Assembly: GCA_023078555.1 (NCBI GenBank)
Contig: CM041200.1
Coordinates: 8,765,528 to 8,829,527, forward strand
Origin: Ulva prolifera
Lineage: Eukaryota; Chlorophyta; Ulvophyceae; Ulvales; Ulvaceae
DNA: 64,000 nt
Direction: 5' to 3'
Notes under the pieces: model-generated
Seen by the model: the letters and a program-made list of their open reading frames with translations, nothing else
What the model was told of the DNA's origin: nothing
The model's database searches: none
Program-made: the position numbers and the translations under genes
In this document: one piece after another, positions 2,248 through 55,420 of the stretch
How the letters are laid out: the number at the start of each line of letters is the position of its first letter
How positions within the stretch are numbered: position 1 is the stretch's first letter

Positions 2248-3632
2248 CCGAATATGCTGTACATGACAGGCCCCTTCGTATATTCTCCCTGATTTGTGAT
2301 TGTTTGAGCACATTCACTGTTCTGGACCACTAGCTGGCAGTGATTGCAATTGGCAGGTCACAGTGGTGACGGAAGAGTGAACACACCCTCAAACAAAAAC
2401 CGTGAGACATATGCATATCCCACACGCAGCACCAAGCTTGGTGCTCGCAGTGGCACCCACAGTTCGCCCAGCGAAGTGAGTTCATGGCGCAATGACAGAG
2501 GATGTAGGAATAAGAGTCACAGCTGCGTGTCATCCACCTGGCCATCTGCAGATGGGCTGGTCTTGACAGCTGTGGACGTGCAGATCTGCTCGAGCTCTGC
2601 TGCACTCGATGTGAGCTGATTCTGTGAAGTGATGTGGTGCCACTTGCGCACACCCACGCGTGCACATTGCCATGAACCCGCATGTCCACATTGAATGCTA
2701 TGGCAGGCTGTGACCACAGCAGCGTACGAACTGATGCGAAGAGGAATGGTCGCCTGCAATTGGCCATGGCAGTCGACCACATGACCACGGAGGTGTTTTG
2801 GGGGGAATTGCGGGCCCGGGTCGCGGGTGCAGGAGTGCCTGATCTGCACTGACCAGCCATCATGATGCAGCCTAGGCTGGCAAGAAGCACAGCACCTGCA
2901 GAGTGCATAGTTCCTTGCACCTCATCGCAGCTCACACGATCTGGGAACTGCCTGCATTCACGTCACTCGGTGTGAAAACATGTACCTGAAAAAGGGCATG
3001 CATGGAGGTGTGGCAGCAGCCATTAATATTGCATGCATGCAGGATGAGAACTGGGCCCCCACGCTGCTCAGCTTCACACCTGACCGTGCACGGCCGTGAC
3101 AGGCTTACAGTCCCCACGTGCAGCCACCCTGGCAGTGCTACCAGCTTCTCTCCGACTTTGACATGGCGACACCACAACTGCCAGGGAGATGCAATGCCCA
3201 CAGCCGTTGTTTTGCCAGCTTGACAACTCCGGTGTGTACCGGCCCCAGCATGCTACTGGTACAGCGTGGCAAGGCATGCACATGGCAGGCCTCATGGGAC
3301 GAACTACATCCTCAAGCAGTGAGGGATAGCACAGGGGTGAAGGAGCTGCGGGGGTCCACCGGGACTGAGAGTGTGTGCCACCATCGGGGGAGGTTGAGCA
3401 AGCTGAGCAAGCAGATCCGAGCAAGGTTAACTTGAACTGAGCAGGACACGGCCGGGCGGGAGTTCCAGGTCACCTTGACTTCACCCTGCTTCCGGAGCAA
3501 GCTGCGCGTGCGCAGCAAGGATAGAATTCGTCACGCTGGAACTTGTGAAGCTGGAGGCCCAGTGGCATGGCCTCCCCGCGCTCGCAAGGGAATCCCTCAG
3601 AACGTTTGGTAGGAGCTGTGATGCAGTGAACA
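2248..3632. other. No convincing gene
   Basis: A 201-codon minus-strand frame (2330-2935) is the longest open stretch. Its translation is rich in Cys, His and Ser, shows no family motif and has no exon partners, so I do not call it. Confidence 0.4.
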
Positions 3633-3646
3633 ACCGGAATGTGCGT

Positions 3647-3721
3647 GTGTGAGTGTGTGTTGGAAGATGATTCGGATCAGATTCGGTTTCAGTGCTTGTT
3701 TTCTCCCGTTCACTCTTTTGC
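3647..3721 (+). mobile_element. Family B LINE tail, copy 2, with 14-bp TSD
   Basis: Carries the family B core GATTCGGATCAGATTCGG and ends TTCTCCCGTTCACTCTTTTG. It is flanked by the perfect 14-bp direct repeat ACCGGAATGTGCGT at 3633-3646 and 3722-3735. Strongly 5'-truncated. Confidence 0.85.
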
Positions 3722-3735
3722 ACCGGAATGTGCGT

Positions 3736-6091
3736 TTATGAGGCAGGTCACACCACCACTACTGCACGGGTACAGCAACCATCGCGAATCACCACATAAA
3801 TGCTGTCCCCAGAACGCAGGGAAGTGCCCTTTTCAGAGCAGCCGCGCTGCAGAGCAGCTGTTATGGCTCGGCGCAGCGTGGCAGCGAACTGCCATGCGCA
3901 GAGCATCTTGCATGCGGGCCTCCCGCCGCTCGTTCGCCATCATGCTTCACGCCTGAGCGCCGGGCCGCCCCACTCCGCCCGCCTCGTGCCGTCTTCCGCC
4001 AGCTCCCGCTGTCCGGCTCACGGATTCTTCCCCCCCTCCGGCCTGCCGTCAACGGCCTGCCGTCGACGATGCCCGGGGTTGGTATGCCGGGACACACGCA
4101 GTTGCGAGGTCTGGGAGCAGTGTGCGTGGGCGCATGCATGATTTGGACTTCATGCGCGCGGATGGGATGAGGGAGAGGTCAGGGGCGCAGCCATTCCATC
4201 GAGTGAGAGCCCGGTGGGGGAAGAAGAACTCAGCATGAATCGACCATGTAGTATGAGCCACAGGAGGCTGAGACTCACTAGTACATAGTATACTTTGCAA
4301 GCAGGCAGTATAACTTGCCGTAGATGAGTCATAGTACTGATACGTCTGCAGGCCTGATGTCCCTGTACAGGAGCCACATTGCCAGCACGCAAAAGATCCG
4401 CGATTTCATATCAGATCATTGTGCTGCAGCAGATGCAATCCGGCTCGACGCACTGGTCCAGGTCGTGCTACGTCATGATATCTAGAATCTAGCCCCTAGT
4501 ACGTGTGCTGTACGACGTGGCTGCCAGGGTGATGGTGGGCATTGGCTGCGCAACCGCGTGTCCGGGCGTCATGCGTGGTCTCTGCCCGACATTCCGTGGC
4601 TACGCTGCAGCGGCCGAACCGCCGTAGCAGGAAAGCATCCGGCAGGCTATCTCATGTGCACCAGGCCCACGCCCACATCCCATGCATGCCCTCCATGCTG
4701 CCCAATTGCCAGAAGCTTACCGAAGGTCCCGACGCAGCCGCACCACGCCATGTCAGCTGCGCAGGCCCGGCTGGCTGCCACCAAGCCCCCCCGCCGGACT
4801 TCATGACCCCGTTGCGCCGCATCACGGCACACACCGACAGGATGTATACCGGGGGGGCGCCCACCACCTCAGCACTCATCCGAACTCCCAACGACCAGCA
4901 ACAAGCTGAGCACACAGCCGCTATTAATGCGCCGCACGCGAATGGTCGCAGGGGTCATTTGCATGCATTTGCACATTCTCAGTAGGCGATTGCGCGGGGA
5001 ATGGAGGACGTACCCGGTGAGGACAGCAAAAACTGCCTTGCCTGCATGATGCACCGGAAGAGGGGCAGCAGCAAGGACCTGGCATGGTGTGCGAGTGTGG
5101 TGCAACATGCTCCTCTCTGCAAGAGAGGCAGGCACCGCACAGTGTCAGAGAGAAATAGAACATCGAGACTGGTACCACGGATGCGGTGCGGAAGTCAGAT
5201 GCGAGCTTGCGCGTGATAGCAAGAACTGAGTCAGCAGCCTCTCGGAGGCAGAAGAGTTGTCAGCCTGTCGATCTATCGTTTTCAAGATGTATCATGCAGT
5301 GACTTCCGCGCCCGGCAGCGAATGGCATGAAGCACAGCGGTTCATGTCGACAACACGCCCCACAGCATGTGTTTTCGTGGTGAACGTTCTTCCGCCGGGA
5401 AATCTGCAGCCTACACCACCGACATATCCTGAACAGGCTGACATTCAGGTTGGAACGATGTGTAAAGTCAAAGCGTCAGTCTGGATCGGAAACTGTGGCG
5501 TGGTTACGCATACCACATTGTAGGTCACGAGGTCCACCAGGTAATACACTGGGGAAACTGCGGCAGCAGTACCTGTGAACCCGTGAAGTAATCGTGTGTC
5601 TAAAATTGAAAGGTGGAATACATACGTGGCGTCGTTTCCGAGTTCCTGTGCACACCAGGACAGGTGCCAGGACTTGTCCACCCTGTCCGTCAGCACATAT
5701 TCGCCAGATTATGGTTAATTGTGCCTGTGATCAGATGTCAAAACAGTCGTGCAGGTGAGGAATGCTTTGTGGGAATGGGGGCCGAGACGCAAAGCGAATC
5801 GGCAAAACAAAAATTGTACCGTAGACAACAAGGACTTGCCTTGCTCTAAAGTCGGGCCTGTCTAGCAAGACGAAGCCTCAACTTCCACCCACGTCTACTT
5901 GATCGCGCGATGTGCCGGTCAGGTAAGTATGAAGCAACTATGTCGTGTTGCTGTACTTGATAGCTGTACCCTTGACATCCAAAGAACGTTCGCTGGGGCC
6001 GGATACTGCCACGTGTCGGATGCCCAAGGCATGGTTGAGGCATGTGTTCGCAAACCGGCACCCAGGCGATGAGTGAGCTTGATGCTGGCTT
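3736..6091. other. No convincing gene
   Basis: Several frames of 80-150 codons overlap on both strands (for example 4542-4985 +), but they are compositionally driven, carry no motif and show no splice-compatible partner. Confidence 0.45.
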
Positions 6092-6105
6092 CCCGCCCCG
6101 GTCTG

Positions 6106-6223
6106 CGTGTTACAAGGACAAAGCAAGCAAGGCAGGTAGCACCGCGAGCAGCAACCAGGGGAACCGCACACCACGCAGCAAGCCACATGCAGCACACACC
6201 AACACACCCACGCATTGCCAGCA
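6106..6223 (-). mobile_element. Family A LINE tail with 14-bp TSD
   Basis: In sense (minus) orientation the copy ends GCGGTGCTACCTGCCTTGC, then TTGCTTTGTCCTTGTAACAC, the terminus shared with the longer copy at 12508-13769. It is flanked by the perfect 14-bp direct repeat CCCGCCCCGGTCTG at 6092-6105 and 6224-6237. No coding part remains. Confidence 0.85.
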
Positions 6224-6237
6224 CCCGCCCCGGTCTG

Positions 6238-8618
6238 TGCATGCCGTTGATGATTGGGCTGCAATACACAAGCATACATGCCAACAAATGTGAATGAACG
6301 CCTGCCACGTCGCACCAACACGCATCCTTCGAATCCCTCGTTTCGAAGGACCGTCTCAAGCAGTTCTCCGAAGACGTCAGACGTGACTACTTTGGAAAAA
6401 GGATCGTGAATGCGAACATCGCCGTGAGTGTAATCTAGGTGAAGTTTACTGGTGGCCTTGGCAGTCTCTCGTCCTCCGGCGTTGTCATCGGGTGCACTTG
6501 GACCCAGGGCAAGACGACCAGTGCGACGGATCGACCAGTGCGACGGACCATTGCACCTCTACATGAGCCTTCATATCCGACTGCGCCGTGTGCAAGTGTG
6601 GTCACAGCATACAGCCTTCGCGACCAGCATTTGACTGCGTGGAGCGATCTAGCATGCAGGAAGCACATGGCCTGCTGTGCCTAGGCTCGCATCTTCCCTC
6701 AACGCAGTGGAGTACAAAGTCTGAAAATGGCTAGCAATGGTGCTTCCCAGCTAGCCTTCTTGCACGGGCACTGCTGCGCTGTGCTGTGACCCTGCCAGAG
6801 CATGTGCAGTTTATTGCACACATGTAGCAGTCGCTGTGTCACACCCATCCGAGGCAGGCATAATTCTTTCTGAACCAGAAGCTGCATCAGATGTGGTGGT
6901 AGGCTACACTATATTCGTAGGCCAGGAAGCGATTGGGCCAGCGCTGCCACACCCATTGCAAGTCACTAGGCAAGAAGCAGTCCATTAGTGGCCGTGGACC
7001 ACTGGTACCGAAGTCACAAGACGGAAAGGCTGTGCTGAGGCCAAGCCTCCATCGTTGATCTGGTGTGCAGTGCACAACAACATGAGAATGACGCACAACG
7101 CATGCTGCTTTGGTTTTCCCATACCATGAAGTAACAGCTCTGTCTCACTGCGAAACATCACCTGATGCATCAGACCTCTGTCTTGCGCTAGTTCACAAAC
7201 ATGTCAGCACGCCTACATGTGCTCACGCCTGGAGTGGCTTGCAACTAAACATAGCTGACTCCACACTGGACGTGAGAATTTAAAGGTTCCGATTGAACGA
7301 TGCTGCAGCATCATATGGACTCATGGCATCGACACACGTAGCTTGTGTCATGCAGAAAGCAGTCTGATTGTCACACAACTGGATGTTTTCAGTGTCACAC
7401 GACTGGAGCAAGACTTAGCTCCTAAACCACCAAGCCTTTGACACTGATCTGAGCAGCCAGCCAGCAGCATATACTGCTAACTCAGTCTGTGATCAGTGTG
7501 TTGATCAATGCACAATGCTTCCTGAGGCATCGAGGCAACGCAATCGCATGAACGTCAGAATGAGAGCTCAAGACTTGATGTCACACTTCTACGGTGCTTG
7601 TTTTGTGCAGTGTAGCTTCCAAGAAGGCTGCCGGTGGTGTGCAGCGAGCCATACATGTCAAAACCGCTGCTGAGCCGCCCACAGCACCGCCAAATACAAA
7701 TACAACATCATTATGGGCCAGGTACAACTATAATGGATGTTCTGATTTCAATGAGCGACCGCTGGGCAGCGTTGGGCAAAACTTGTCTTTATGCCCAGCC
7801 ATGCATACGATTTTGACGGAAAGGTGCGACTTTGCCCAGCGACTTGACACAAAGGTACAGTGGCACCCAGGAGGGCCTAATTAGTCTGTAGACATTCCCA
7901 GCGCTTTCCAGAGCGTTCTGAGGTGCCCGCGCTTCCGGTGGACATGCATGAGGGCTGTGCCCACCCCCCTCCTTGCAGCTTGTAGCTGTCCTTGCGCTCG
8001 CGCGTCGGTATCGGTGTGCAGCACCAATGCCCGATCGTGACTCTCGCACCTTTTATATTCTATGGCATCGTCAAGCATTCCCGACCCCTTCGACGTCGGC
8101 GTGTGAGTGCGGTGCGAACCGCACCCCATGGCCACGTGCGCTCTGTACATGTGTGCTGTTGCCAGATGTTGCTGTGCGATGCCTGCGGTGCTACCTGCCT
8201 CTGGGATTTCCTTCATTCCTTCCAGAAAGGGCATTAGAGAGTCTGACAGTCCTGAATGTGTCCCCGATTGCGGGCTCCTGCGGGCGCATCTGCATTCTGC
8301 TGCTCCCTTGGGGAGCCAGAACGAGTCCATAGCTAGACTCATGCTCTCCTGAAAGTTGGGGTGTTTAGTAGCGTCTGCGTTGTGTGGCAGCTTGCAGCTA
8401 GCGAGGTTTTTCTTGTCCCCTCCACCGCGATGGTGCCCGCACCGGATCGAGCCGGGCAGGTCTTCCCTCACCGTCATCCCGAAAAGGAGCTCAAGTCCCC
8501 ATTTTGATCAATGAAAGGCTTTTGTCGTGGCTGCCACCTTGTGCAAACGACCGCTGGACAGCGCGCCCTGTACTAGGTGCAAGGGCACTTTGCCAGTCCA
8601 GACCTCGAAGACGAGACC
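6238..8618. other. No convincing gene
   Basis: No frame here keeps a recognisable domain. A minus-strand frame of 198 codons (7881-8477) overlaps the dispersed repeat at 7984-8050 and a partial family A motif near 8188-8203, so it is probably repeat-derived. Confidence 0.45.
7984..8050. repeat. Dispersed repeat D, copy 1
   Basis: About 67 bp closely similar to 14590-14657; both contain GCGCGTCGGT followed by ACCAATGCCCG. In the second copy the repeat supplies the start codon of the F-box/ApaG gene. Only two copies seen. Confidence 0.7.
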
Positions 8619-11600
8619 ATGGAATCTGCTGGGACATTACCGCGTCGTATTGTAAGAGCCCGCTCTACTTGCCTTCGGCAGATGACAGTCACGGAGCAGT
8701 GGGAACACATCTCGCTGAAACCACGATTCCTGCGTACATGGTTCTCAATCAGTCTGCTCGTTGAAGCGATAATTACTGCCGTTGTCTACATTTGGGGCTG
8801 GGCTGCGGCAGGTCAGCCCTTCGTCGTTGCTGTTCCTGCCGTCGCGCTTGTTGCGGTAGTGACGGGAGTTGTCTTGGCTTGTCATTTTCACGGTCCGATA
8901 CCCCATGCTACGATACTGTGCCCGGCATACAGCTTGTTGAAGTTATACATAGTGGTTTGCCCTTTCATCCAAAAGGTCCAGAATGTGCGCCCTCATCTCT
9001 CAGCCTGCTGAGTTTGCAAGTGGCTGTGGCTGCTTGTTCGATGGCCTGCGATCAGGAACAATGGGCACACGTCAACAGAAACAGCATGTACCGCTGATGG
9101 GTCAGCAAGATGACCTACTTGTCCTGCAGAGACCGTGGGGAAGTTGGAGGTGTCACATTGCAGCTGGAGTCATCAGCACGTTCATGATGCATTTTCCGTG
9201 CGTGGTTTCGACGGAGTCATGGCAGAGGTCGCCGCATCGCCTTTTGGATGTCCGCTTGGATGTGGCGTTCTCGGGTGTGGCTGCTATCTGTAGGCATCTT
9301 GACAACATCATTGATATCGACATGGGCACCTTTCTGCTGGACCAGGTATGCCAGCATGGCCTACCAGACTCTCCTCCAGGATTGTTGCCACGCCAGCACA
9401 TGCACCTTGACATGAGGCTTTACCTGCATATTTTCCTACCGACTCGACTCTTACACGGTCAAACTCGTTCATGACAGGAGACCTGATGTCTGTGACCATA
9501 GCAAAACTGCATATGAACAGCTGAGATCGCTTCAGCTTTGGTTGTTGGTTGTCGACTGCACGGCTCTCAAATACCTGCAAATGCAGAAAACCTGCATGTT
9601 GCAAAAAATGCTTGTGCAGCCAAACACATGTGTCACCGTGACAACGACTGCCGTGCAGGCTACAGGTCCAGAGTGCAGGTCTGGCCTGCACAGCATCTGC
9701 GGCCCCCTGTGGCCACTTGCCTGCACATATCTGACCCTCAGCACCATTGAAATGCTCGTCTCCATCATTCTGACCTGCGGTGGGAAGTTCATGGCTGGCG
9801 GCACTGCTAACCTCAACAGGTGAGTGATTCGGCAGCATCAACGACAGGCGGGTTCACATGCACTTGAATTCACATGCACGTGAATGAGAACGCACTTGTT
9901 CTCGTTTTTGGATGTTTCAATGGACTGGAAGGCTACTCATAGACTCTTGTCATGTGCAGCCACCCTGCCGCATTTCCCCTCCCTGTACCTTTCATTTGCA
10001 GCGCACTGGTGGGTTTGAAGCTGGCCATGCTGTCAGGACTCGATCAATTTGTCGAGAGATGCCACCAAATGGCCTGTACAATCGTAGATTCCTCGACTGG
10101 AGTGGCGACATGACCCCAACACCTGGGAATTGCTCCACACAGGTTCAAAACAGAGTGCCAGAGGCCACAGCGCCGGCTGGTGGTCCCCATTGCACCCAGT
10201 CGTCACGGTCCGGCAAGAATTCAGAGATCCAACAGGATTTTCCCAACAAGTCGAATGGCTCGGAACGGAAGTTCGACCCACACACCAAACACCGCAGACA
10301 CGCACGCACATCTGTCCAGCACACCTTGTGATCGTATCTCTGAGGCTGCCCTCTGTGCATGCAGGGCGCGGGCGGCAGTGTACGTCGTCTCCCTGCTCTG
10401 CGAGGCCGGCCTCATCTGCAGTCACGCCATCTACTGGCGCATGCTGCGCGAGTCCCGCGGCTTCATCCCGGGCTCCGGCGTCGGTGATCCGCAAATGCAT
10501 CTCCTCCCAGCAGACAGCGGCGTCCAGATTGCTGTTGCCACCACGGCCAACACTGTCATGTTTGCTGCGAACATCTGGGGCCTGCGCCGCTCGCTCGTGT
10601 ACCTGAAACGATGGTGGAGACAGATGGTCAGGTTGTGTTTCCGGACGGGAGGTACTGACGCATCACCCCCGGACACATCTGTGCATGCCCGGCTGCGGCT
10701 CGCCCAGGTGCAGTCTGTGCACGTGTGGCGTGCTCTAGAGAACCAATCGCTCTGTGTCAATGGGGGAATGCACGTCGAGGACCTGTTGCGCCAGGACAAC
10801 AGTCCGCCGCTCATGCCACCGCCACTGCAGATGTCCCTGACATGGTCAGAGCAGATGACTGCGCTGGAAGCGCTGCGGCGCCAGCACTCCGTCCATCTGC
10901 CTCGTGGCTTCAGCTTCCTGGTCCAAGAATCCGAGAAGGGTAGCTTGCATGGCACTCATTCCGACGCTACCGAGCCCCAATGGCGCAGACAGTCACAGAT
11001 CGGTCTTTGCACGAGGTCTACTTCCCTGGCATCGATCAGAAGTTCCATCGGCTGCGGGCCCGTGAACGCTGTGACGACATCATCGGGGAATGGCTCCGGC
11101 TCGCCGTCGGCTGTCAAGCCGGTGCCGCTCGCACACAGCCGTCAGAGCAGCAATGCATTGCAGGATACTCACCCCAGCGGCACAGATTCCCCGGGCCTGG
11201 CATGGAGCGCGGTCCCCATGCACCGTGTGCCTCAGTTGCAGCATGCTTGCGTGCACACCGCTTCGCATTCGGGCGCGGCGCCAGTACAGACGGACATGTC
11301 ACCCGAGGATGGAGACACGCAGAGCGCGTTGCGTTACTTGGATGCACTGCAGAGCGCCGGAACGGACACAGGGATGAATCGATGGTGTGTGTGTGTGGTT
11401 TCCACAGCCCCTAGGCCTGCAGGGACTGTGATGCATGAGGCGCTCTGCGAAGCCCAGCCTGGTGTATGATTTTCCACATGCAGGGATCCAGGAGCTGCGG
11501 TATGCATCAGCTTCTTGGATGGGCGATTGGGGACAAGTCATGCGAGTGCAGCAGCGTCGACGTCACCGGAGCGCATCGCCATGCACCCCGCCTCTCATGC

Positions 11601-44037: not shown

Positions 44038-47000
44038 GCGTACATCAGTGCTTCGCAGCACACAAAGCCGGCAGCCGCCGCCGTCTGCCGCAGAGAGACA
44101 CAGCACAGCGCGTCGCGCCAGGCCAGCGCCAGCACGCACTCCGACACGATCTCCGGAGACACCCTGATACGGGCTCCGAGGACACTCTGGAATGCCGTGA
44201 CTGCGTGTGCCGGCGGGCCGTGCTGCGCGAGGAAGACGAGCAGGCGCCCGATGTCCTCCTGAAGAGGCGGGCTGGCACAAGCCGCCGCAGACAATGCATG
44301 TACCTGTGTGACTGCCTCGACACACAAGCCTGCACACCAAGCGGCACTGTTTGAGGCGGGACTGAGTGGCATGATCAATCTGCGTTTATGGCACAGGGGC
44401 AGTGCTCTTTCAGCGCTGCGGCACCAGTGCATCGAGCTCATGTAACAGGGAGCGCATGCCTGTTCTGAGTCTCGGAATGTGGCCGTGTACGAATCATGTT
44501 GCAACAAGAGAAAGCACGGTGCCAGCGTATGGGCACACCCGCAGGCCTGCAGGGGGGTCGAACGCAATCAGGTAGGACTGCACCAGGGAAGCGGCTGCGA
44601 GAGGCAGCAGCGATGAACGCAGCGTGGCAGGCGTCGTCGGGCTGAACGCCGAGGGCGGCCATGTGACGCCACAACGCCGCCGCCGCGGCCGCATCCCCTG
44701 TGCCGGCAGCCGTGGCCAGGCATTGCGCGTACGCCGCGGCTGTTGCTGGCTGGAGCGAGCGCGCGCAGGCGTTGAGAACGTTGAGGCCGTTTGCGGTGAG
44801 GCCGGCGCGGAAGTGTGCCAGCGCGACCAGGCCATAGGCCACGATGTCCGGCCGGAGGTCGCCGGTGCGCGAGACTGTGCTCATTCTGCGCACAGGGTCG
44901 TGCTAGTATCAGCGACGGCATCGGGTACGATGAAGCAGCTGCTGGGACGCAAACGGTCTTCTCAGATACATGCAACCGCACTGCGAGGGGACTAAAATGT
45001 GAACTCTGCCAAGAAGAAACTGCGAAGTGTAGACCTGGATTTATGAACGACATGTGTTCTGCACGGATGTGATCTGCCTCATCTGCGGAACATTCCATTG
45101 AGTGCAGAGCCTGCTCTAGAGAGGCCTTACAGAAGAGGGAACAGGTGCTCGCCACAAAAACACCCGAAACCATTCGAAAAAGATCGCACATGTAGAGCCA
45201 GCAGCTTCCGCACTGCATGTATTTGCAGATGAACACGGGGCAGACATCACCACACCCCATACACACAGGAAACAGTTCATCCATGTACATACATACACGT
45301 GCATGTGCGGTGGATATCCAGACATGCATGCTGTGCAGTGCATGGGCGGTGTGGCCTTACCTGCTCATAGCATAAAGAAACGCCAGGGCGCGGGCCGGCT
45401 GCGGCGGGGTCGCCTCGGCGTACGCCCGCAGCAGCACATTGCAGCACTGCGTCGCCAGTGCATCCCCGGCCAGGCCTCGAGCTCGGACGCCAGCAAGCTC
45501 ATGACCATCTCTGTCGTCGGGCGAGCATGTGTGACCAGGGCATGCATATGCATACCCACACGCTCCCCAGGCGTCTTCAAGTTCCGGCGCCCGGAGGCCC
45601 TCAGTGCCGCCGTCGACGTGCGCACTCCCCAGCTCCCGCACAGCCTGCAGCAGCCCGCAGGCTGCGTCGGCGGCTGCATCGCCGTGCGGCAACGGTGGCG
45701 GAGCCTGTGCGATCGCCGCCGCGAGGGCAGTGAAGGGCTCGAGGTGCAGCTGCTGGGCGAGCTCGGCGAGGAGGCAGGCCTCCGCGAGCTGCCAGAGCCC
45801 AGCACGGCGCAGCGCGCACAGCAGGAAGAGGCACGCCTGGCCGTCCAGGCATGTGCCCTGTCGAAAGGCCACGGTATACGCCTACATGCACTTCTGTCAT
45901 CACGCTTGCGCTGTGCATACTGCGCATGACGTGCACACACCCTCACCAGCAACCTCAACACAAGCTTCTCTTCCTCTAGAGTACTATGCAAGCGCAGCAG
46001 CACCGAGCTGCATTCAAAGAGAACGTAAACGGAGCATGAAGCGCGGGTATTGCTCCGTGAAATGCATGGGGAACGAGACGGCAGGGGACGCACGGACACG
46101 CAGAGTTCCCACATGCCGTGGGAGTGCAGCACTGGGAGCAGCGCTCGGTACGTGATGGCGTCGGCGCAGGCGCTGTGCGCCGAGGCCTTCAGGCGCGTTT
46201 GCATGTCGCAAAACACGTGCCACGCCTGGACCGCGTCGCCGCCGCGGTTGCAGGCCCACAGCGCCGCGTTGCCGAGGGAGAGGTCCATGTCTACGTCCAG
46301 GAGGTGGAGGTACGTGAACAGCGCGAGGCCGCGGCGCCACAGCCCTGTTTTGGAGTACTTGGAGATGAGCTTCGTCAGGGTGGCCTTGTTTGGGCGGCAC
46401 AGCGGAGCCACGCACAGCAGCGCTTCCTGGACCGCACGGTCGGAGTTGCAGCCGTCCAGAACACACTGGAGCCTGCACGCAATGAGGGCAGTCAGTCGCT
46501 CATGAGCGTGTGACCACAAACGTCTCAGACGGAGTTTCGAGCTCGTTGGGCCTGTGAGTCCCATGGCGTACCGCATGCCGTTCCCCGGGCGCGAAGTAGT
46601 GTGCTGGAGTACATGCATGCTGCGGCCGTTCGGAATGCGTCTGCGCATCGCGTCACACAGCACGGTGCTGAGATCTCTCAGCACCGTGCTGTTTGCTGTT
46701 TTGTGATTTGCAGCTGTTCAGGGCGTCTTTGCCGCTGTATATGTACAACTGGCCGCCCGTTCAAAACATCACTGGCACTTGATCACGTCTGCCGCACGTT
46801 GGTCCGGCACATTGCATGCCGAGCACAGCAATTTGCAGGCCCGCAGCGCACGGGACACCCATACGACCCTTCAAGGCTGGCGACCAGCCCCACAGGCTGT
46901 TTGCTGTGCGTGCGGCCACAACGCAGAGTACAATCTTCAGACACCTTTGAATCCTGAATGTTGTACAGCATGTCCGCAACTGCACGAGCTGAGCCGGGCG

Positions 47001-47398
47001 GGCGTGTGGTGGCGTGGCGCTGGCAGTCATGCTCAACAGAAGAGTGCATGCCTTCTGAGGTCTGAGAGCCGTCGGTGAGCCGGCCGCTCCTGCAGAGTCG
47101 CCCGAGGCGGTGGCTTGTCGGCATCTGCGCCGGCGCCATCGCGGCCGTCAGCGGCTCGCCCGGCTTCGCGGTCCGGGGGCGCCGCGGAGCCCTCGCCGGA
47201 GAGCCCTCCACATGTGGACAGCGTGCCGCAGGAGGCGGCTGCCGCGGCCGCTGCGGCGGGGGAGCCCTGGACGGCTGCCGCAATGAGCCCGCTCACGATG
47301 CCGCCACAGCTGCCGATGTCGTCGGAAGCGGCAGTGTCGAGCGCGTCGGGTTGCGCGGGCGGCGGTCGGGCATGTGGGAGCTCGGCCGGTGCGTCCAT
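44034..47398 (-). CDS. PPR-like protein gene 3 (close duplicate of gene 2)
   Basis: Exons in reading order: first exon from ATG 47398 to about 47050 (3' end unresolved), then 46472-46094, 45881-45361, 44885-44584 and 44329-44034 (TGA). The last four join in phases 0, 2, 1 exactly as in gene 2, and exon 4 (302 nt) and exon 5 (296 nt) have the same lengths in both genes. Shared features include HRRLSDLRRHALF, KATLTKLISKYSKTGLWRRG, CALRRAGLWQLAEACL, ATPPQPARALAFLYAMSR and WRHMAALGVQPDDACHAAF. Exon 3 is 24 nt longer than in gene 2, in a variable linker between two conserved blocks. Intron 2 here lacks the poly-C run. I could not find a phase-2 donor for exon 1, so either the model or the gene is imperfect at that point. 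Helical-repeat RNA-binding function is inferred from the family. Confidence 0.68.
46657..46692. repeat. Perfect hairpin, 17-bp arms with 2-nt loop
   Basis: ACAGCACGGTGCTGAGA at 46657-46673 is followed by TC and then its reverse complement at 46676-46692. It lies in the first intron of PPR-like gene 3. Confidence 0.9.
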
Positions 47399-47401
47399 CA
47401 C

Positions 47402-47787
47402 ATGCTCTGTAGACCGAGGCGCGTCGTGGAGGCCGTGGTGTGAGCGGCAGGTCAGGCCAGCCAGGGTGGAGCCGCGTGTGCACGCCCTGAATCCAAGCAG
47501 TGTGTCAGGCGGTGTACGGCGTCATCAGGTTTGGAAGGCGCTTGGGCCACTGGGCCTACTGGCATGAAGAAGATTAGCATGAGCAGGTTCGCTGAGCTGA
47601 GCTTGTGGTGACGCCCATTGGACGAGAACGCTGCCACAATGCAAAGCATGCAGAATGTGCCTGCCCGTACATAACTCTTCCAGGGACAAAAGAGAATGCG
47701 ACCGTAGGATGTTGGAAGCGCTGGATCTTGTGCCATGTCCTGTAGGGATGCTGTGATGTTCGAGCAAAGACTCCTCGCAGGGCGATA
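47402..47787. other. No recognisable gene
   Basis: Region upstream of PPR-like gene 3 and left flank of the 6.4-kb element. Only short frames; possibly the gene's promoter side. Confidence 0.4.
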
Positions 47788-48476
47788 TCTGTGCCAATTC
47801 GTTAGTGTTCCAAGCCTAGGCCCCCCAGGAGAATCGCTTTTTAACATAGACAGCGTTGCCGGCCGCCGCCACCGATCACCAGGAGGGTTACAAAGACTTG
47901 ACAGCAGCTACTCGTGCGGTCGTCTGTGTCAAAGCTTTCGCAATCACTGTTTCCATCAAGCGCGCGACAGGCACATCTTCTGAACGCTTGACGAGCATAT
48001 CGAAGCCTATCAAAAACAGCAGCCTTCCAGCTCGCGACACGGCGCTCATCTGTAGCAATCTGTCGCGTCGGGCTTGGCTTCTTGGTGCTGCCATCCGAAC
48101 ATGTCGGGCTCGGTGACCGCTCGACGCCGCGGCACTGAACTTGATACGCAACCACAATGACCACCAAGCTGTCCAATTCACCCGCTTCCAAGCCCAGATA
48201 GCATCAGCTCGCCAATACCCATGTGCACGCAACAGCTCACTGCCTGGCGCTCGCTGACCGCATGCCAGCGAGAGGTGGCTGTTTTTGCCTCTGCTGATTC
48301 ATTTGACCGTTGGCAATGGCGCGCAGCTGCAGCGGGTTGCTGCCCTGATTTGTACGTGCATGGGTCTGTTCTTGCTATACGCTGAATCGCAGCGAGCCGC
48401 GATTCGCTTGCAATGCACAATACATCCGGATCTGAATGTTCGTTCTAGGCTAGGAACACTTTCGTGCACCTACTGA
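47788..48476 (+). repeat. Left 689-bp direct terminal repeat
   Basis: Starts TCTGTGCCAATTCG and ends GTGCACCTACTGA. Several short frames are open on both strands but have no recognised motif. The two ends are weakly inverse (TCTGT and ACTGA). Confidence 0.92.
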
Positions 48477-48614
48477 ACCGAATTCGTGTGGTGTGATGAA
48501 TGTGCGCGCAGAACCTCCCTTGTAATTATAAATATGACTTAGACTGGTACGCAACTTGTGTCTGCGCCAGAAACGACCTGTGTGCTTTGAACGGTAGGCT
48601 GCTCGAGCGCTGCG

Positions 48615-49525
48615 ATGAGTCACCACACGGACGACGACATGGACAGGTACGTCTGAGCAGGCGATTCGCGTTTTAGACAGCAAGTGTTAATCTGAGCGTT
48701 CACTCACGGTGATCTTCGTGGCGAGCAGTCTGTCCGACGTGTATGTGCGGATGTTCCGGTGGCAGGTTGCATACTGTCTTGCGGTGCAGCGGGCGGGAGA
48801 GCACAGACGGTGAACCTGACTGCGGCGCAGCGGACTCATCTGGTAGTGATTTGGACGAAGCTGTGGCGGAGGATTTAGACGGTGACGAACCAGTGGCGGG
48901 CGCCCATCCGCATGCAAGGTGGTCCCGCCACACGAGAGCGGTGATGGCAGCATTCTTGATGAACCAGATGACAGCTGCCGAGAGACTGCAGCTCAAAAAC
49001 AGTTCCGGGAAGGATTGGCCGAAAGGCAATCGGCAACGATGGAAGCCAATATATGATAAATTATTGGATTTGGTCAGAGAGACAGAAAATGGCAGGCATG
49101 AGGTGAAGGAGACCAATGCAAAGATACACGAGTTGGACCGTGACACCGTGAAAGAAGCAGCCAAGACATGGACATTAAGGCTGCTCAGGACAGGCAGCGT
49201 GGTGGATGCCCCCCCTCATGTGAAGGGGTACAAACATGCCAAGAACCACCCCCACCTACAAAACATTCTTGAACTCATCATGGCAGGGTATCCAGATGCA
49301 GCTGGCAATAAATGCCTCTACAGGAACCTACACGACCTTCGTGCAAGGAGGACAGAAGCATTTGCTGCAGAGTTTGACAAGCTGAGCTGCAAGACTATGA
49401 GGGGACTGTGGCTGCAACTACAAGAGCATGAACCCAAACTCATGGTGGTCAAGATCAGGATGAAGAAAGTCAGGAACGATGAGAACGTCCGAGTGTGTCC
49501 CATTTTATCTGGAATGTGTACTTGA
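48615..49525 (+). CDS. Spliced acidic/helical protein of the 6.4-kb element, possible DNA-binding
   Basis: Exon 1 is 48615-48646 (MSHHTDDDMD) and exon 2 is 48766-49525. The donor CAG|GTACGT and acceptor GTGGCAG| join in phase 2 across a 119-nt intron to give 264 residues. The N-terminal third is acidic (DEAVAEDLDGDEP). The middle is helical and charged (RWKPIYDKLLDLVRETENGR, KIHELDRDTVKEAAKTW). Near the C-terminus, LSCKTMRGLWLQLQEHEP followed by KIRMKKVRND could be a helix-turn-helix, as in transposase N-termini; that is a guess from pattern. The gene starts 139 bp inside the left terminal repeat and is followed directly by the 317-bp tandem array. I do not recognise the family. Confidence 0.6.
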
Positions 49526-49569
49526 CGCCGTTGCAATATAGTGGAATTGGCACAAAGCACACCAAGCCA

Positions 49570-50837
49570 TGCATGCCAATGCAAACACACCAGCAGCCAC
49601 CTGCACATGGACTAGACCATGCCCCACTCACTGCACGACGCTGAATCTTCTACACCATGGGCATCTTGACCTGTAGTGTAGAGTTACGAAGTTTGGGAGT
49701 CAAAAGAGCATCAGAGCACCTGGTGTGACCAATGCACAGACCACCCTGTTGGCATGTGCATCTAGTGCACCGGAGCTCCAATGAGGCTCATCTCAGAACA
49801 TACAGCAGCCAACTTTATGGTTATACAGTGTACCAAGTTTCAGCATCATCTGCATAGCCAGTGTGTCTGATCTGCACCTCCTGCTATGCATGCCAATGCA
49901 AACACACCAGCAGCCACCTGCACATGGACTAGACCATGCCCCACTCACTGCACGACGCTGAATCTTCTACACCATGGGCATATTGACCTGTAGTGTAGAG
50001 TTACGAAGTTTGGGAGTCAAAAGAGCATCAGAGCACCTGGTGTGACCAATGCACAGACCACCCTGTTGGCTTGTGCATCTAGTGCACCAGAGCTCCAATG
50101 AGGCTCATCTCAGAACATACAGCAGCCAACGTTATGGTTATACTGTGTACCAAGTTTCAGCATCATCTGCATAGCCAGTGTGTCTGATCTGCACCTCCTG
50201 CTATGCATGCCAATGCAAACACACCAGCAGCCACCTGCACATGGACTAGACCATGCCCCACTCACTGCACGACGCTGAATCTTCTACACCATGGGCATAT
50301 TGACCTGTAGTGTAGAGTTACGAAGTTTGGGAGTCAAAAGAGCATCAGAGCACCTGGTGTGACCAATGCACAGACCACCCTGTTGGCTTGTGCATCTAGT
50401 GCACCAGAGCTCCAATGAGGCTCATCTCAGAACATACAGCAGCCAACGTTATGGTTATACTGTGTACCAAGTTTCAGCATCATCTGCATTGCCAGTGTGT
50501 CTGATCTGCACCTCCTGCTATGCATGCCAATGCAAACACACCAGCAGCCACCTGCACATGGACTAGACCATGCCCCACTCACTGCACGACGCTGAATCTT
50601 CTACACCATGGGCATCTTGACCTGTAGTGTAGAGTTACGAAGTTTGGGAGTCAAAAGAGCATCAGAGCACCTGGTGTGACCAATGCACAGACCACCCTGT
50701 TGGCATGTGCATCTAGTGCACCGGAGCTCCAATGAGGCTCATCTCAGAACATACAGCAGCCAACTTTATGGTTATACAGTGTACCAAGTTTCAGCATCAT
50801 CTGCATAGCCAGTGTGTCTGATCTGCACCTCCTGCTA
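49570..50837. repeat. 317-bp tandem repeat, four units, inside the 6.4-kb element
   Basis: TGCATGCCAATGCAAACACA starts units at 49570, 49887, 50204 and 50521, and the sequence resumes at 50838 before diverging. The period is exactly 317 each time. Units 1 and 4 share variants (GGGCATCTTG, CACCGGAG) against units 2 and 3 (GGGCATATTG, CACCAGAG). Confidence 0.97.
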
Positions 50838-50925
50838 TGCATGCCCCCACATAGGGCACTGCCTGCAATGCATGCTCCCCCCCTCATGTGAGTTGTTAGC
50901 CCATATAAGCTGCAATGACCCGAGT

Positions 50926-51564
50926 ATGATCGAGGTGCAGGAGTGTGCTCGCCAAGTTTTAGGCCAAAGCCCAATGCAGTTTAATGCAGTGACTGTAGAG
51001 CCAGTGGCTGAAGAGCCCCCAACCCAAGACAACAAGAGGAAGAAAGGGCAAGAGCAGCAGGCAGGTGTTGATGACAGCTGCATGCCAAACATCACAGGAG
51101 AGTGCAGGTGGGACCCAAGCAATGGCATGAACCAGTGGTGGGTGGATGCCTTCAGTGTTGACCCATCAGCAATGGTGGAGGGTCTCACTGGCCTGTGGTG
51201 CCGTGGCACACCACAACCCATCAGGAACACCAAGTTGGAAAACGCCAGTGTGGGGACACTCCCGTTGATCCTCGTGTATATTGCTGTGCACCAGCAGTAT
51301 GGCACCTATGCTTGGTATCCCTATCATGGAGCCAGGCATGGGGCTGTCGACGAAGAGGGTGAGAAGAAAATGTTCCAAGGGTTCAAATACTGGTTTGATG
51401 ACATATCTGAGGCTGACAAGGAAGGTATCGTCCGCAACCGGTACTGCAATCAGCCAAGCGCGATTGAGGCATATCACAACAAGAGCTCGAAGGAAGAATG
51501 GGAAGCCTTCACGACGGGCAAGTTCAATCCACGATGGTTCATGGTGTGCTGCTACATTGCGTGA
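50926..51564 (+). CDS. Unrecognised ORF of the 6.4-kb element
   Basis: The open frame runs from within the end of the 317-bp array (50812). The first ATG that avoids repeat sequence and starts a plausible protein is 50926, giving 212 residues. Visible features are an acidic/lysine-rich linker (PPTQDNKRKKGQEQQ), then a Trp/Tyr-rich segment with CRWDPSNGMNQWWVDAF, YGTYAWYPYHGARHGAV and GFKYWFDDISEADKEGI. It ends FNPRWFMVCCYIA. It has the even residue balance of a real protein but no motif I know. An upstream exon is possible because AG sites precede 50926. Its 3' half overlaps the antisense nuclease-like frame. Confidence 0.5.
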   Translation: MIEVQECARQVLGQSPMQFNAVTVEPVAEEPPTQDNKRKKGQEQQAGVDDSCMPNITGECRWDPSNGMNQWWVDAFSVDPSAMVEGLTGLWCRGTPQPIRNTKLENASVGTLPLILVYIAVHQQYGTYAWYPYHGARHGAVDEEGEKKMFQGFKYWFDDISEADKEGIVRNRYCNQPSAIEAYHNKSSKEEWEAFTTGKFNPRWFMVCCYIA

Positions 51565-52206
51565 CCACATGGCAAACCACATGCACGTTGTGAACAATGC
51601 CAGCATGCTTACAATCTCTAAAGCTATACTGTCAACAGCTGAAACAAATCCACTGGCAGAGCGAGATGGCCCTTGCTGTACAGCACATATACATTCATCT
51701 GCACTCAAGCCATACACGGTAATACATGCACCAAGACATGCAATCGTTTTCTCATGATCACTTTTCACCACCCGAGATCTGGTGTGATTGTTGCCTTGCA
51801 CCTCAACAGCAACCAACGTGCACTCTGGACCTGGTGATGACAACACTAGGTCCAGCTTCAGGTTGCACCCCTCCCTATACTGTCCTCCACGTCTGCTTCT
51901 CTTCTTACCCCTGTGCACTGATGCCATCACCCTACCCTGTAGCTTCTGTGTCTCTGAGTGGAGGGGCCACTGTGTGCACACCAGGCCACAGTATCCAGCT
52001 TCCCTCAAGACTTGCAGGGCTTCAGCACCTCCACTGTCCTTGAATCTGCCATGTATCTTGCATTGACAGGGGCTTTTAGGCTTCGTCTTCAGGGGCATCA
52101 TGCACCCACACACATGACCATGGTGGTCATGGCATGGGTGCAGCTTGTAACCTTGGGGTAGGAGCTGTTGCAGCTGCTCCACCTGACAAGCACCTGCACA
52201 TTGCAC
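51166..52206 (-). CDS. Possible PD-(D/E)XK nuclease-like protein of the 6.4-kb element
   Basis: Minus-strand frame of 346 codons. The N-terminal part is Cys/His-rich (HPCHDHHGHVCGCMMPLKTK, then PCQCKIHGR), perhaps a zinc-binding unit. Next comes a block reading EALQVLREAGYCGLVCTQW. Then LKLDLVLSSPG, LVAVEVQGNNHTRS, VVKSDHEKTIACLGA and CITVYGLSA form an order of hydrophobic-Asp, Val-Glu-Val-Gln and Lys that fits PD-(D/E)XK nuclease folds with an E-x-Q variant. This is pattern inference. The frame has no ATG at its left end, so an upstream exon is likely. The last third (51166-51564) lies antisense to the neighbouring ORF and may not be coding. Transcription would be opposite to the other three genes of the element. 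Confidence 0.5.
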   Translation of the reverse strand: MQCAGACQVEQLQQLLPQGYKLHPCHDHHGHVCGCMMPLKTKPKSPCQCKIHGRFKDSGGAEALQVLREAGYCGLVCTQWPLHSETQKLQGRVMASVHRGKKRSRRGGQYREGCNLKLDLVLSSPGPECTLVAVEVQGNNHTRSRVVKSDHEKTIACLGACITVYGLSADECICAVQQGPSRSASGFVSAVDSIALEIVSMLALFTTCMWFAMWSRNVAAHHEPSWIELARREGFPFFLRALVVICLNRAWLIAVPVADDTFLVSLRYVIKPVFEPLEHFLLTLFVDSPMPGSMIGIPSIGAILLVHSNIHEDQRECPHTGVFQLGVPDGLWCATAPQASETLHHC

Positions 52207-52256
52207 ACAAAAGTTTAGCTAGAGTGCCTCTTGCAGACCTCTGACAGCTCACAGAA

Positions 52257-53210
52257 ATGCAATCTGACACAAAGAGCCACAATGACAGAACAAGGATGCC
52301 AACATGTGTGCAGACTGCAGAAGGCAAGAAGGCAAGAGCGCCAGTCTCGAGTGAACTGGCTGCTATGTTTGCCTACGCGGTACTGCCTACCATTCGGAAG
52401 CACTACAGGACAGGATGTGATGAGGCATATCAACAGCTGTGCCGAAACTTTGCAAGGGAAGCACAGATCCCCCAGCAGTATTGGGGGGCGATCACAATTC
52501 CATGCTTTTTCAGCCTGGACTGGGACACGAGACATGCCTGGCTCAGATCGGTGATCCAGCAGCCGCGAGGCGCAGACGTGGCTGGCTTCGACCAAAGGGC
52601 CGTCTCCCAACGGCTTGGTGCGCCTGCCCCGCATAAGCAAGCGAGCAACCTGCAGCTTTTCGACGAGGGCTCGAGCTCCAGCCGCGTGAGAGAGTTGATG
52701 CGCCGCGGAAATGCCCAGCACAACCGACTTCGTGACCTGCATAGGGCCATCACTCAGGACGGCTGTCACCCAGTTTTACTACGGAGATGGCATGAGTCCC
52801 TACGCAACATCAACTACATCACCGTGCATGAGCGGCAACTGATGCCGCTGTCGAAAATTTCACCCGACATTCATTCGCCGCCGGAGCACATGGTCGGAAC
52901 GTTGAAAGGAGATGTGAGGCTGAAGATTCTAGGCTTTGATCTCTCAAATGAGTTGCTGTGGCAGGGCGCGCAGTATCAGAAGTGGATCAACGATGCAGTT
53001 GTGGCGAGGGGCAACGGCCCGGAAGGTAGGAAGCACATACTGGGTTCGGTGCGAAAGCAGGTGATCATATGCAGAGTTCTGGCCGCTGATCGAGGCCAAG
53101 ACGTTCAAGTTGACGTTGTGACCGGACCGGCAGATAAGCCTGTCGTGTCAGAAACGGTCACGTTGAAGGGAACAGCTGGTGCGTGGATTCGAGACACACG
53201 CTGGACGTGA
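52257..53210 (+). CDS. Tc1/mariner-like (DDE) transposase C-terminal region, 6.4-kb element
   Basis: 317-codon frame from ATG 52257 to TGA 53210. It contains RAITQDGCHPVLLRRWHESL, then LPLSK-like MPLSKISPDIHSPPEHMVGT, then LKGDVRLKILGFDLSNELLW and RGNGPEGRKHI, ending GTAGAWIRDTRWT. ISPDIHSPPEHM parallels the SPDLNPIE block holding the last acidic residue of IS630-Tc1-mariner transposases. The Asp in QDGCHP would be the second catalytic Asp, 42 positions before the Glu. The first Asp is uncertain (FFSLDWDT is a candidate). No N-terminal helix-turn-helix is visible in this frame; the upstream gene may supply DNA binding, as a separate protein or by splicing. The frame ends 266 bp before the right terminal repeat. 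Family assignment is from motif order only. Confidence 0.5.
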   Translation: MQSDTKSHNDRTRMPTCVQTAEGKKARAPVSSELAAMFAYAVLPTIRKHYRTGCDEAYQQLCRNFAREAQIPQQYWGAITIPCFFSLDWDTRHAWLRSVIQQPRGADVAGFDQRAVSQRLGAPAPHKQASNLQLFDEGSSSSRVRELMRRGNAQHNRLRDLHRAITQDGCHPVLLRRWHESLRNINYITVHERQLMPLSKISPDIHSPPEHMVGTLKGDVRLKILGFDLSNELLWQGAQYQKWINDAVVARGNGPEGRKHILGSVRKQVIICRVLAADRGQDVQVDVVTGPADKPVVSETVTLKGTAGAWIRDTRWT

Positions 53211-53475
53211 TGCACGTTACAGCCCATCAGAGCACGCACACACCATGGAAATTACCTTGTCAGTCTGCTGAAAGAGCCTGTTGTTGTGCTCCGGCGCTAC
53301 TGCCCGCAGCCCTCTCCTCGCAACCAGTGTAACAACGAATCGGCACGCACAATAGTGCCCTCCGAAGCTGTCCAATACTATACCTCCATGTCTTTACCGG
53401 CTGCATGGTTTCACGAGGTGCATATTGCGCAATGCGGCTCCTGCATTCCAAACGCCTCAACACGCCTGAATCCCT

Positions 53476-54164
53476 TCTGTGCCAATTCGTTAGTGTTCCA
53501 AGCCTAGGCCCCCCAGGAGAATCGCTTTTTAACATAGACAGCGTTGCCGGCCGCCGCCACCGATCACCAGGAGGGTTACAAAGACTTGACAGCAGCTACT
53601 CGTGCGGTCGTCTGTGTCAAAGCTTTCGCAATCACTGTTTCCATCAAGCGCGCGACAGGCACATCTTCTGAACGCTTGACGAGCATATCGAAGCCTATCA
53701 AAAACAGCAGCCTTCCAGCTCGCGACACGGCGCTCATCTGTAGCAATCTGTCGCGTCGGGCTTGGCTTCTTGGTGCTGCCATCCGAACATGTCGGGCTCG
53801 GTGACCGCTCGACGCCGCGGCACTGAACTTGATACGCAACCACAATGACCACCAAGCTGTCCAATTCACCCGCTTCCAAGCCCAGATAGCATCAGCTCGC
53901 CAATACCCATGTGCACGCAACAGCTCACTGCCTGGCGCTCGCTGACCGCATGCCAGCGAGAGGTGGCTGTTTTTGCCTCTGCTGATTCATTTGACCGTTG
54001 GCAATGGCGCGCAGCTGCAGCGGGTTGCTGCCCTGATTTGTACGTGCATGGGTCTGTTCTTGCTATACGCTGAATCGCAGCGAGCCGCGATTCGCTTGCA
54101 ATGCACAATACATCCGGATCTGAATGTTCGTTCTAGGCTAGGAACACTTTCGTGCACCTACTGA
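53476..54164 (+). repeat. Right 689-bp direct terminal repeat
   Basis: Same sequence as 47788-48476 as far as can be read by eye, offset 5688 bp. Confidence 0.92.
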
Positions 54165-55420
54165 TATCGATATGCTAGGAACCGCGTGGCGCCGCGTTCA
54201 TGATCAGTCCCACACCCGGCATTGGAGTCAGCAGCCTGAAACGATACAGACTCGTTTTAAGAGCATGATATGAACGGTAACACCTGGTGCATTGACTTCA
54301 AGTATTCAGAGAACATGATCATGATCTTAGGCAGTTGGTAAAGCAACGATGGCAGATATCTATATGCTGGGTCATGGCTGAGGTAGCACTGCCGCACTGC
54401 ATGCACAAAACTTATGCAAAACTGCTGCTAGCAGCAAGCTCCTCGCGCAGTGAACGACCGCAGAATAGCCGAACCAAGCAACAAAGGCGCTTTGTGTCTG
54501 CCCAGCTGTCAACAAATAGGCGCCTTTCGGTGCGAGCCAGGCGTGAAGACGCGCGCGACCTCGACGTGCAGGCTGCAGCTGGGTACAAACGCTGTTCACG
54601 AGTTCTGATCCCCAGATGAACACCCTTGCAGCAAGAGATTAAACAAACGCCAAGAGAGAAAACAAACAAGAGATACCCCGGTTACATCGAGTGCAGTGTT
54701 GCGTCGACTGCATCCCACGATGCCGCAGCATTGGCACCTCCAGCAAGGGAGAGCTGCTGAAACAGAAAAACTGTGAGCCAGCCGAGCCACAAAGAACTGA
54801 TTGTTGCCTGATCTAGCGGCATTGTGGCTGACGGCATCAACTTCGATGTAGTGGGGAGCCGAGCAGTGTGCACGTCTGATGGTCAGAGCCTGTGTGCAGA
54901 CGGAAGACGGAAATTGAACATATACCAGGTGAATGCTGTCGAAAAGTTTTATGTACAGGTATGCAGAAGCATGCTATCCGCCAATCTCAGCGTCAAGAAG
55001 AAGCGGCATCCGTTGGTCAAGCCTCTAAGGCAAACACACGTCGGGCATGTCGGACATATACCAGGCCAAACCCACGTGTACAACGGTTGCTGTTGCATAG
55101 TAGCGGATGGTCCAAGTCCACACGAGACAGACAACGCGCTACTGATACAACGAGTCTGGATCGAGAGCACGATCATGCCTCGGAGCACTGCCAACGTCAA
55201 CACGCGAGAGCGGGCAGCCTTGGAGCAGACAGTCGAGACGCCTCAAGGCTGTCCGGGCTGCCCAGGGCTCGTGAGCAGTATGCCAGCCCCGAGCGTCGCG
55301 GCGACAGATTGCAGCTGCAGGCACGAGAAGCTGCATATGCAGTGAGAGCCCTAGGGAAGTCGCATGCGACTTGTCAAACGATGAAGTGACATCGACGCGA
55401 TCCCGCGTACACACATATGC
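54165..55420. other. No recognisable gene
   Basis: Overlapping plus frames of 165-173 codons (54824-55389) lack motifs and exon partners. Confidence 0.4.

Follow-up and report, generated by a model that had tools for sequence, protein, structure and literature searches.

A probable composite-like DNA transposon with long terminal direct repeats in the green alga Ulva prolifera

A stretch of 64,000 nucleotides from Ulva prolifera (assembly GCA_023078555.1, contig CM041200.1, positions 8,765,528 to 8,829,527; hereafter the window) holds, between positions 47,788 and 54,164, a multigene element bounded by long direct repeats and devoid of recognizable retroelement genes. Which class of mobile DNA does it belong to? 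The first-pass annotation, made from the letters alone, found that it fitted no class. We propose that the element is a composite-like DNA (class II) transposon, in which two long terminal direct repeats (LTDRs) with inverted ends surround an internal region (INT) that would code for a DDE transposase and an antisense PD-(D/E)XK nuclease. We give this reading a probability of roughly 0.78. The composite plan is apparent in the window copy and in two other full-length copies, on contigs C1 and C9: in each, INT lies between long direct repeats and the whole unit is flanked by a target duplication.

The repeats had been described as two identical stretches of 689 bp (47788-48476 and 53476-54164) with TA on both sides. 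Compared base by base, they show 0 differences over 689 bases, so the identity stands, but alignment of the window repeat with other genomic copies places the boundaries of the repeat proper at 687 bp (CTGTGCC...GTGCACCTACTG). The T and the A beyond these 687 bp are indeed present, but they are part of a 4-bp target duplication, ATAT, around the whole element. The inverted ends of the LTDR match at 15/16 bases, 15 bases from either end, a score reached by 1/1000 shuffles. The four reading frames announced by the first-pass annotation all exist, as does its 317-bp array. The parts of the element are the following (positions in the window, strand, feature):

47785..47788, no strand: left target-site duplication ATAT, from flank comparison across family-1 loci
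47789..48475, plus: left LTDR, 687 bp, identical to the right LTDR; boundary from other copies
47804..47819, plus: inverted repeat AGTGTTCCAAGCCTAG of the left LTDR, 15 bases inside its left end; 15/16 matches with its partner, which has an equal offset at the right end
48445..48460, minus: partner inverted repeat near the right end of the left LTDR, from the shuffle-tested inverted-end comparison
48476..53476, plus: INT, between the LTDRs; present in all three full-length copies
48713..49525, plus: open frame A, which would be exon A of a predicted transposase gene; its C-terminal portion can be aligned with corresponding frames in families F2, D and E/F (see below)
49569..50845, no strand: tandem array of period 317 bp with 4.0 copies, inside the intron predicted to separate frames A and B; from repeat-period analysis
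50809..51564, plus: open frame B (exon B), with the candidate first catalytic D at codon 51145-51147 (WWVDAF), invariant in five aligned sequences of four lineages
51169..52218, minus: antisense frame of a putative PD-(D/E)XK-type nuclease, from profile matches of homologues and shared residues; the part common to other families spans about 51646-52218
52245..53210, plus: open reading frame 4 (ORF4), predicted to form the C-terminal, DDE-like half of the transposase, from motif alignment and without a Pfam match; candidate second D at codon 52518-52520, candidate E at codon 52884-52886
53477..54163, plus: right LTDR, 687 bp, identical to the left LTDR
53492..53507, plus: inverted repeat near the left end of the right LTDR, same sequence as in the left LTDR
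54133..54148, minus: partner inverted repeat near the right end of the right LTDR, from the inverted-end comparison
54164..54167, no strand: right target-site duplication ATAT, from flank comparison across family-1 loci

The window repeat was searched against the window's own genome (88.9 Mb, 44 contigs; contigs and loci carry C and L numbers), where it has 39 matches. The full element is present at three loci: the window itself (C5), C1:669941-681388 and C9:1120840-1127849. Both ends are intact at 22 loci of this family, which we call F1: three full-length elements, one repeat dimer (L033), two interrupted repeats (L032 and L050) and 16 solo repeats; matches without an end (L052, L054-L058) and four short matches are left out of this count. 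A perfect 4-bp duplication, of no fixed sequence, flanks 18 of the 22. The three full-length loci, the solos and the target duplications thus bear out the earlier description of a multigene mobile element, whose further copies share its boundaries.

The full-length copies differ mainly in the length of the array: 4.0 units in the window, 6 in the C9 copy and 20 in the C1 copy, the last two figures being derived from element lengths. Outside the array, INT differs from that of the window at 37/3642 positions in C1 and at 8/3642 in C9; one base differs in C9 among the first bases after the left LTDR. Among the three copies the window INT is closer to C9 and the window LTDR closer to C1, numbers too small for us to claim recombination from the conflict. 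Within a locus, the LTDRs of a pair differ by 0 bases (window), 0 (C1), 1 (C9) and 0 (dimer), against 2-8 between these four loci. Such pairs could stay alike if the repeats of a locus exchange sequence; identical ends alone thus cannot date an insertion, and the recent movement once read from them does not follow. In the dimer (L033, C1:4344878-4347248), two identical LTDRs abut with one CTG in common and a single CTTC duplication around them, and the locus looks as if INT had been cut out at its inner ends. One of the interrupted repeats (L032, C2:4358414-4365665) has a copia retrotransposon (RVT_2, rve, gag) inside it, and repeat positions 180-184 match on both sides of the insertion, as expected of a 5-bp duplication.

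Protein searches of the same genome retrieved relatives of the element: families F2 (L059-L063), D (L064) and E/F (L065 and L066, about 97% alike). As far as they were fetched, they have a common plan, with long direct repeats, frames A and B, the antisense nuclease, an internal minisatellite (period about 72, 131 or 153 bp) and ORF4. The direct repeats measure 637 bp in F2 and 687 bp in D, where the pair is 98.98% identical; the L066 pair is covered for 226 bp, and none was seen in L065. No sequence of the other families is convincingly similar to the F1 repeat. Whole units again carry target duplications: ACAT around the F2 element L062, and GTGG on both outer sides of an F2 multimer on C1, which consists of six LTDRs and five INTs in a row, the LTDRs being shared. 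Two related copies on C6 are degenerate, without visible direct repeats. In one of them similarity ends at the INT/LTDR border, and this copy may have lost its repeat, as reported for the KolobokP transposons of animals by Kojima and Bao 2022 (PMC9587614).

Frames A, B and ORF4 would together form one DDE-type transposase gene split over exons, with predicted joins. The three frames align across five sequences of four lineages, and five acidic residues are invariant in this alignment: the D of a VFLDA-like block in frame B (window codon 51145-51147), an E close to where ORF4 begins, the D of SxDNAPxH (window codon 52518-52520, where the window reads SLDWDTRH), and the D and E of TPDLHxxAE (E codon 52884-52886, where the window reads SPDIHSPPE). 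SxDNAPxH and TPDLHxxAE are present in families F2, D and E/F. Three of the five residues stand in the order D...DNAPxH...PDLHxxAE and are candidates for the catalytic D, D and E, which is consistent with the DDE-like frame first annotated here. The DNAPxH and PDLxxxE-like strings of ORF4, found in three of the four lineages, resemble what we take to be the signature of Tc1/mariner transposases. We regard the product as most likely a transposase on the strength of motifs, not of a profile match. Prokaryote genome contigs searched with the ORF4 alignment contained no relative. When the four frames are pooled, the window and C1 copies differ by 15 synonymous changes (about 604 sites) and 9 non-synonymous ones (about 2135 sites; Fisher p = 2e-5), which shows purifying selection on the pooled frames, each single frame having too few changes for a test.

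The antisense frame, noted earlier as nuclease-like, is judging by its homologues a PD-(D/E)XK-type nuclease. The F2 homologue matches DUF2726 with E = 1e-8, over the cut-off, and MTES_1575 with 6.6e-7; MTES_1575 is also reached by L066 (9.6e-6) and L064 (0.0015), these three matches lying under the cut-off. In PHROGs, the F2 copy has a weak HNH endonuclease match (0.032). Searching PDB with the nuclease alignment returned nothing at E up to 1, and neither PHROGs nor NCBIfam was informative on the window's group: the PHROGs family that the window frames match best is an unknown one (0.021). Pfam matches of antisense frames that stay under the cut-off, such as a CRT-like one at 0.001, were taken as chance. 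An Rfam scan of 47000-55000 had no match at E up to 1, and thus no described ribozyme family lies in the repeat; no tRNA genes were found in the window.

Several results weigh against the interpretation as a DNA transposon of this make-up. The joins between A, B and ORF4 are without RNA support, and ORF4 was not identified as a transposase by any Pfam, PHROGs, NCBIfam or PDB profile (best E in PDB with the ORF4 alignment, 0.49). Aligned by hhalign with the mariner protein of this genome, the A-B-ORF4 segments score 21.5, and 60 shuffles reach 22.3. AlphaFold2 on single sequences gave pLDDT values of 34.7 and 38.8; these models were useless and were not used. The window's own nuclease frame reaches DUF2726 at 0.0043 only, under the cut-off. 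The inverted ends are weak in F2, where 37/1000 shuffles are as good, and the 3' LTDR of family D, as cut, did not show them (648/1000). Four of the 22 F1 loci (L037, L046, L047 and L053) have no perfect 4-bp duplication. Finally, solo LTDRs could also come from recombination, a point to which we return below.

What else could such a locus be? Identical ends might betray a chance tandem duplication or an assembly artefact, but the three full-length copies, together with solos at unrelated sites with target duplications, exclude this, and its probability is negligible. An integrated virus, or an element with terminal direct repeats and a tyrosine recombinase, would explain several genes on both strands between such repeats. 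We hold it to be very improbable: the Pfam and PHROGs scans gave no capsid, packaging or recombinase match, viral contigs contained no relative when searched with the ORF4 and nuclease alignments, and the 4-bp duplications point to DDE-type strand transfer. The element might also be a non-autonomous long terminal repeat (LTR) retrotransposon with genes of its own, presumably a LARD or TR-GAG element, that relies for its copying on reverse transcriptase and integrase supplied by another element, for example this genome's copia. LTR retrotransposons, too, have long direct repeats, solos and short target duplications (4 bp here), the LTDR pairs of a locus are identical or nearly so, and a copia element with reverse transcriptase and integrase matches does exist in the genome. 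Against it, Pfam found no gag, reverse transcriptase, integrase or protease in the 14 frames of at least 100 amino acids touching INT, frames to which the scan was limited, in agreement with the first-pass annotation; the control worked, as the copia of L032 gave RVT_2 at 2.1e-53, rve and gag. Genes lie on both strands, the repeats end in CTGT...ACTG and not in TG...CA, and no primer-binding site or polypurine tract was seen at the junctions, which were inspected by eye only. Moreover, the LTDRs of the window contain inverted repeats, whereas LTRs have none beyond TG..CA according to PMC9587614. An LTR origin is accordingly improbable in our judgement.

The remaining alternative accepts a class II element and holds that its solos arise only by recombination between the two repeats, never by movement of the repeat. 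Unequal exchange is expected to give solos, and families F1 and F2 do keep full-length loci. The F2 solos, including those of a subfamily F2b, allow a closer look: all 11 that were fetched, drawn from the 40 scored among 114 candidates, have a 4-bp duplication. Five F2b solos are 99.4-100% identical and sit in five different target duplications (a sixth is about 95% identical), which suggests that the repeat moves alone. Among at least 16 F2b copies at 88% or more (scoring covered 40 of 112 candidates), none is paired, the nearest two being 162 kb apart. Recombination would need five full-length insertions, all of them reduced, with no intact donor left, and repeat movement is therefore the simpler explanation; a donor outside the assembly is conceivable. 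In favour of recombination, the F2b copy at C3:3850202 (93%) has a broken, F2-like ORF4 at a distance of 1.9 kb, so that full-length F2b elements have probably existed. We consider recombination as the sole source of solos unlikely, and retain the composite-like DNA transposon with repeats that probably move on their own.

A DDE_3 search revealed that a second kind of DNA transposon in this genome has adopted long direct repeats. Family G, represented by L070 (C9:3140500-3150000, element at 2765-8437), has a transposase of 369 amino acids that matches DDE_3 (7e-6) and IS630 (1.6e-17), both under curated cut-offs, and the Sleeping Beauty structure (9e-10). Its direct repeats are 1123 bp long with 5 differences in the pair. 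Family G follows the LTDR plan of the window's group, with strong inverted ends (0/1000 shuffles as good, compared with 2/1000 for the 5' copy of family D), an internal array of 350 bp, further single repeats and a multimer, located on C2, with five LTDRs in a row within one AA duplication. Of 41 matches listed, eight G loci were examined, namely L070, the multimer on C2 and six repeats that stand singly; all eight have a 2-bp duplication, TA in 4. No nuclease was seen in the two frames scanned, and no relative was found in viral contigs and plasmids searched with the G mariner protein. All together, solos with target duplications occur in F1, F2 and G, and multimers in F2 and G, F1 itself having the LTDR-LTDR dimer only. 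Two G insertions on C2 (L088 at 6.49 Mb and L090 at 6.88 Mb) lie at the same position in flanking sequences that are almost reverse complements of each other, which reflects either a target repeat common to both or a duplication of the locus.

How do these elements relate to known systems? That the window element fits no class proved too strict, since its plan is that of the KolobokP DNA transposons, described from seven animal phyla and called unlike any other DNA transposon for their long terminal direct repeats (PMC9587614). Both have the order LTDR-INT-LTDR with inverted ends in each LTDR, and in both a nuclease is encoded on the strand opposite to that of the DDE transposase, here as predicted from sequence. 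KolobokP also forms solo LTDRs, likewise found here, with duplications of 3-5 bp and no strong target preference, and (LTDR-INT)n-LTDR multimers, found here in the related family F2; its LTDRs are about 450 or 660 bp long, compared with 637 (F2) and 687 bp (window). The differences lie in the parts. The ends are RR...YY in KolobokP and CTGT...ACTG here. The KolobokP nuclease is of the His-Me finger type and encoded downstream of the transposase, whereas ours would be of the PD-(D/E)XK type and lies between frames B and ORF4. The Kolobok C/DxxH between the second D and the E has no shared counterpart in our families, F1 alone having such strings in ORF4 after the second D. The window family, unlike KolobokP, has an internal minisatellite, and its host has chlorophyll a/b antenna genes and is not an animal; the antenna proteins have their best matches among chlorophyll a/b proteins, a Euglena photosystem entry heading the hits listed. 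The working plan agrees with Kolobok; membership fails on termini, motif and nuclease.

The window family does not join Tc1/mariner-IS630 either: its group has no significant DDE_3 or IS630 match, whereas family G does match, its duplication is 4 bp of no fixed sequence and not the 2-bp TA of Tc1/mariner, and the stretch between the second D and the E is longer. A further parallel, discussed in PMC9587614, is offered by the bacterial composite and pseudo-composite structures of IS26, whose direct repeats are likewise each potentially an element, and whose circular translocatable units of one repeat plus the middle part are comparable to the window plan; their transposase is encoded in the repeat, that of the window family between the repeats. 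We entertain, with the odds about evenly balanced, a broader proposal: that two DNA-transposon lineages of one algal genome, the first with 4-bp duplications, an antisense PD-(D/E)XK nuclease and a transposase unrecognised by the profiles used, the second a Tc1/mariner with 2-bp duplications, each became LTR-like composites with self-moving direct repeats, that the window family is a new superfamily, and that the LTDR plan and antisense nuclease are convergent. No title among the literature matches listed, a scope outside which subscription papers and Repbase entries lie, reported such elements in algae or in Tc1/mariner. If the proposal is true, the LTDR plan with an antisense nuclease is no peculiarity of animal Kolobok. 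Were it to occur outside animals, with another nuclease and, within a single genome, with two kinds of transposase, then long direct repeats would not be diagnostic of LTR retrotransposons, and elements of this sort may be misclassified by annotation pipelines as non-autonomous members of that group. How paired repeats of DNA transposons arise and are maintained could then be studied by comparison within one genome.

A working model may be suggested for the composite-like transposon, in which we infer the enzyme action of transposase and nuclease from sequence. The transposase would bind the inverted ends of the LTDRs and join them to a target cut with a 4-bp stagger. Any left end could pair with any right end, so that a whole element, a multimer or a single repeat could move, the whole element by its outermost ends. 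Because every LTDR carries both ends, the possible outcomes include movement of the whole element, movement of a lone LTDR in the manner of a small non-autonomous element, and loss of INT, giving a dimer. By analogy with the model for KolobokP, the nuclease would cut element DNA, and repair from the other LTDR would keep the repeats identical and generate (LTDR-INT)n-LTDR multimers.

Two of the related loci have further features. The F2 element L062 is embedded in a satellite array with units of about 168 bp, which occupies positions 1-2913 and 8576-10000 of the locus. L065 (C5:8855300-8862000), a family-E copy, lies on the contig of the window, about 36 kb downstream of the window element, and its 153-bp array is open over 909 amino acids antisense to the element.

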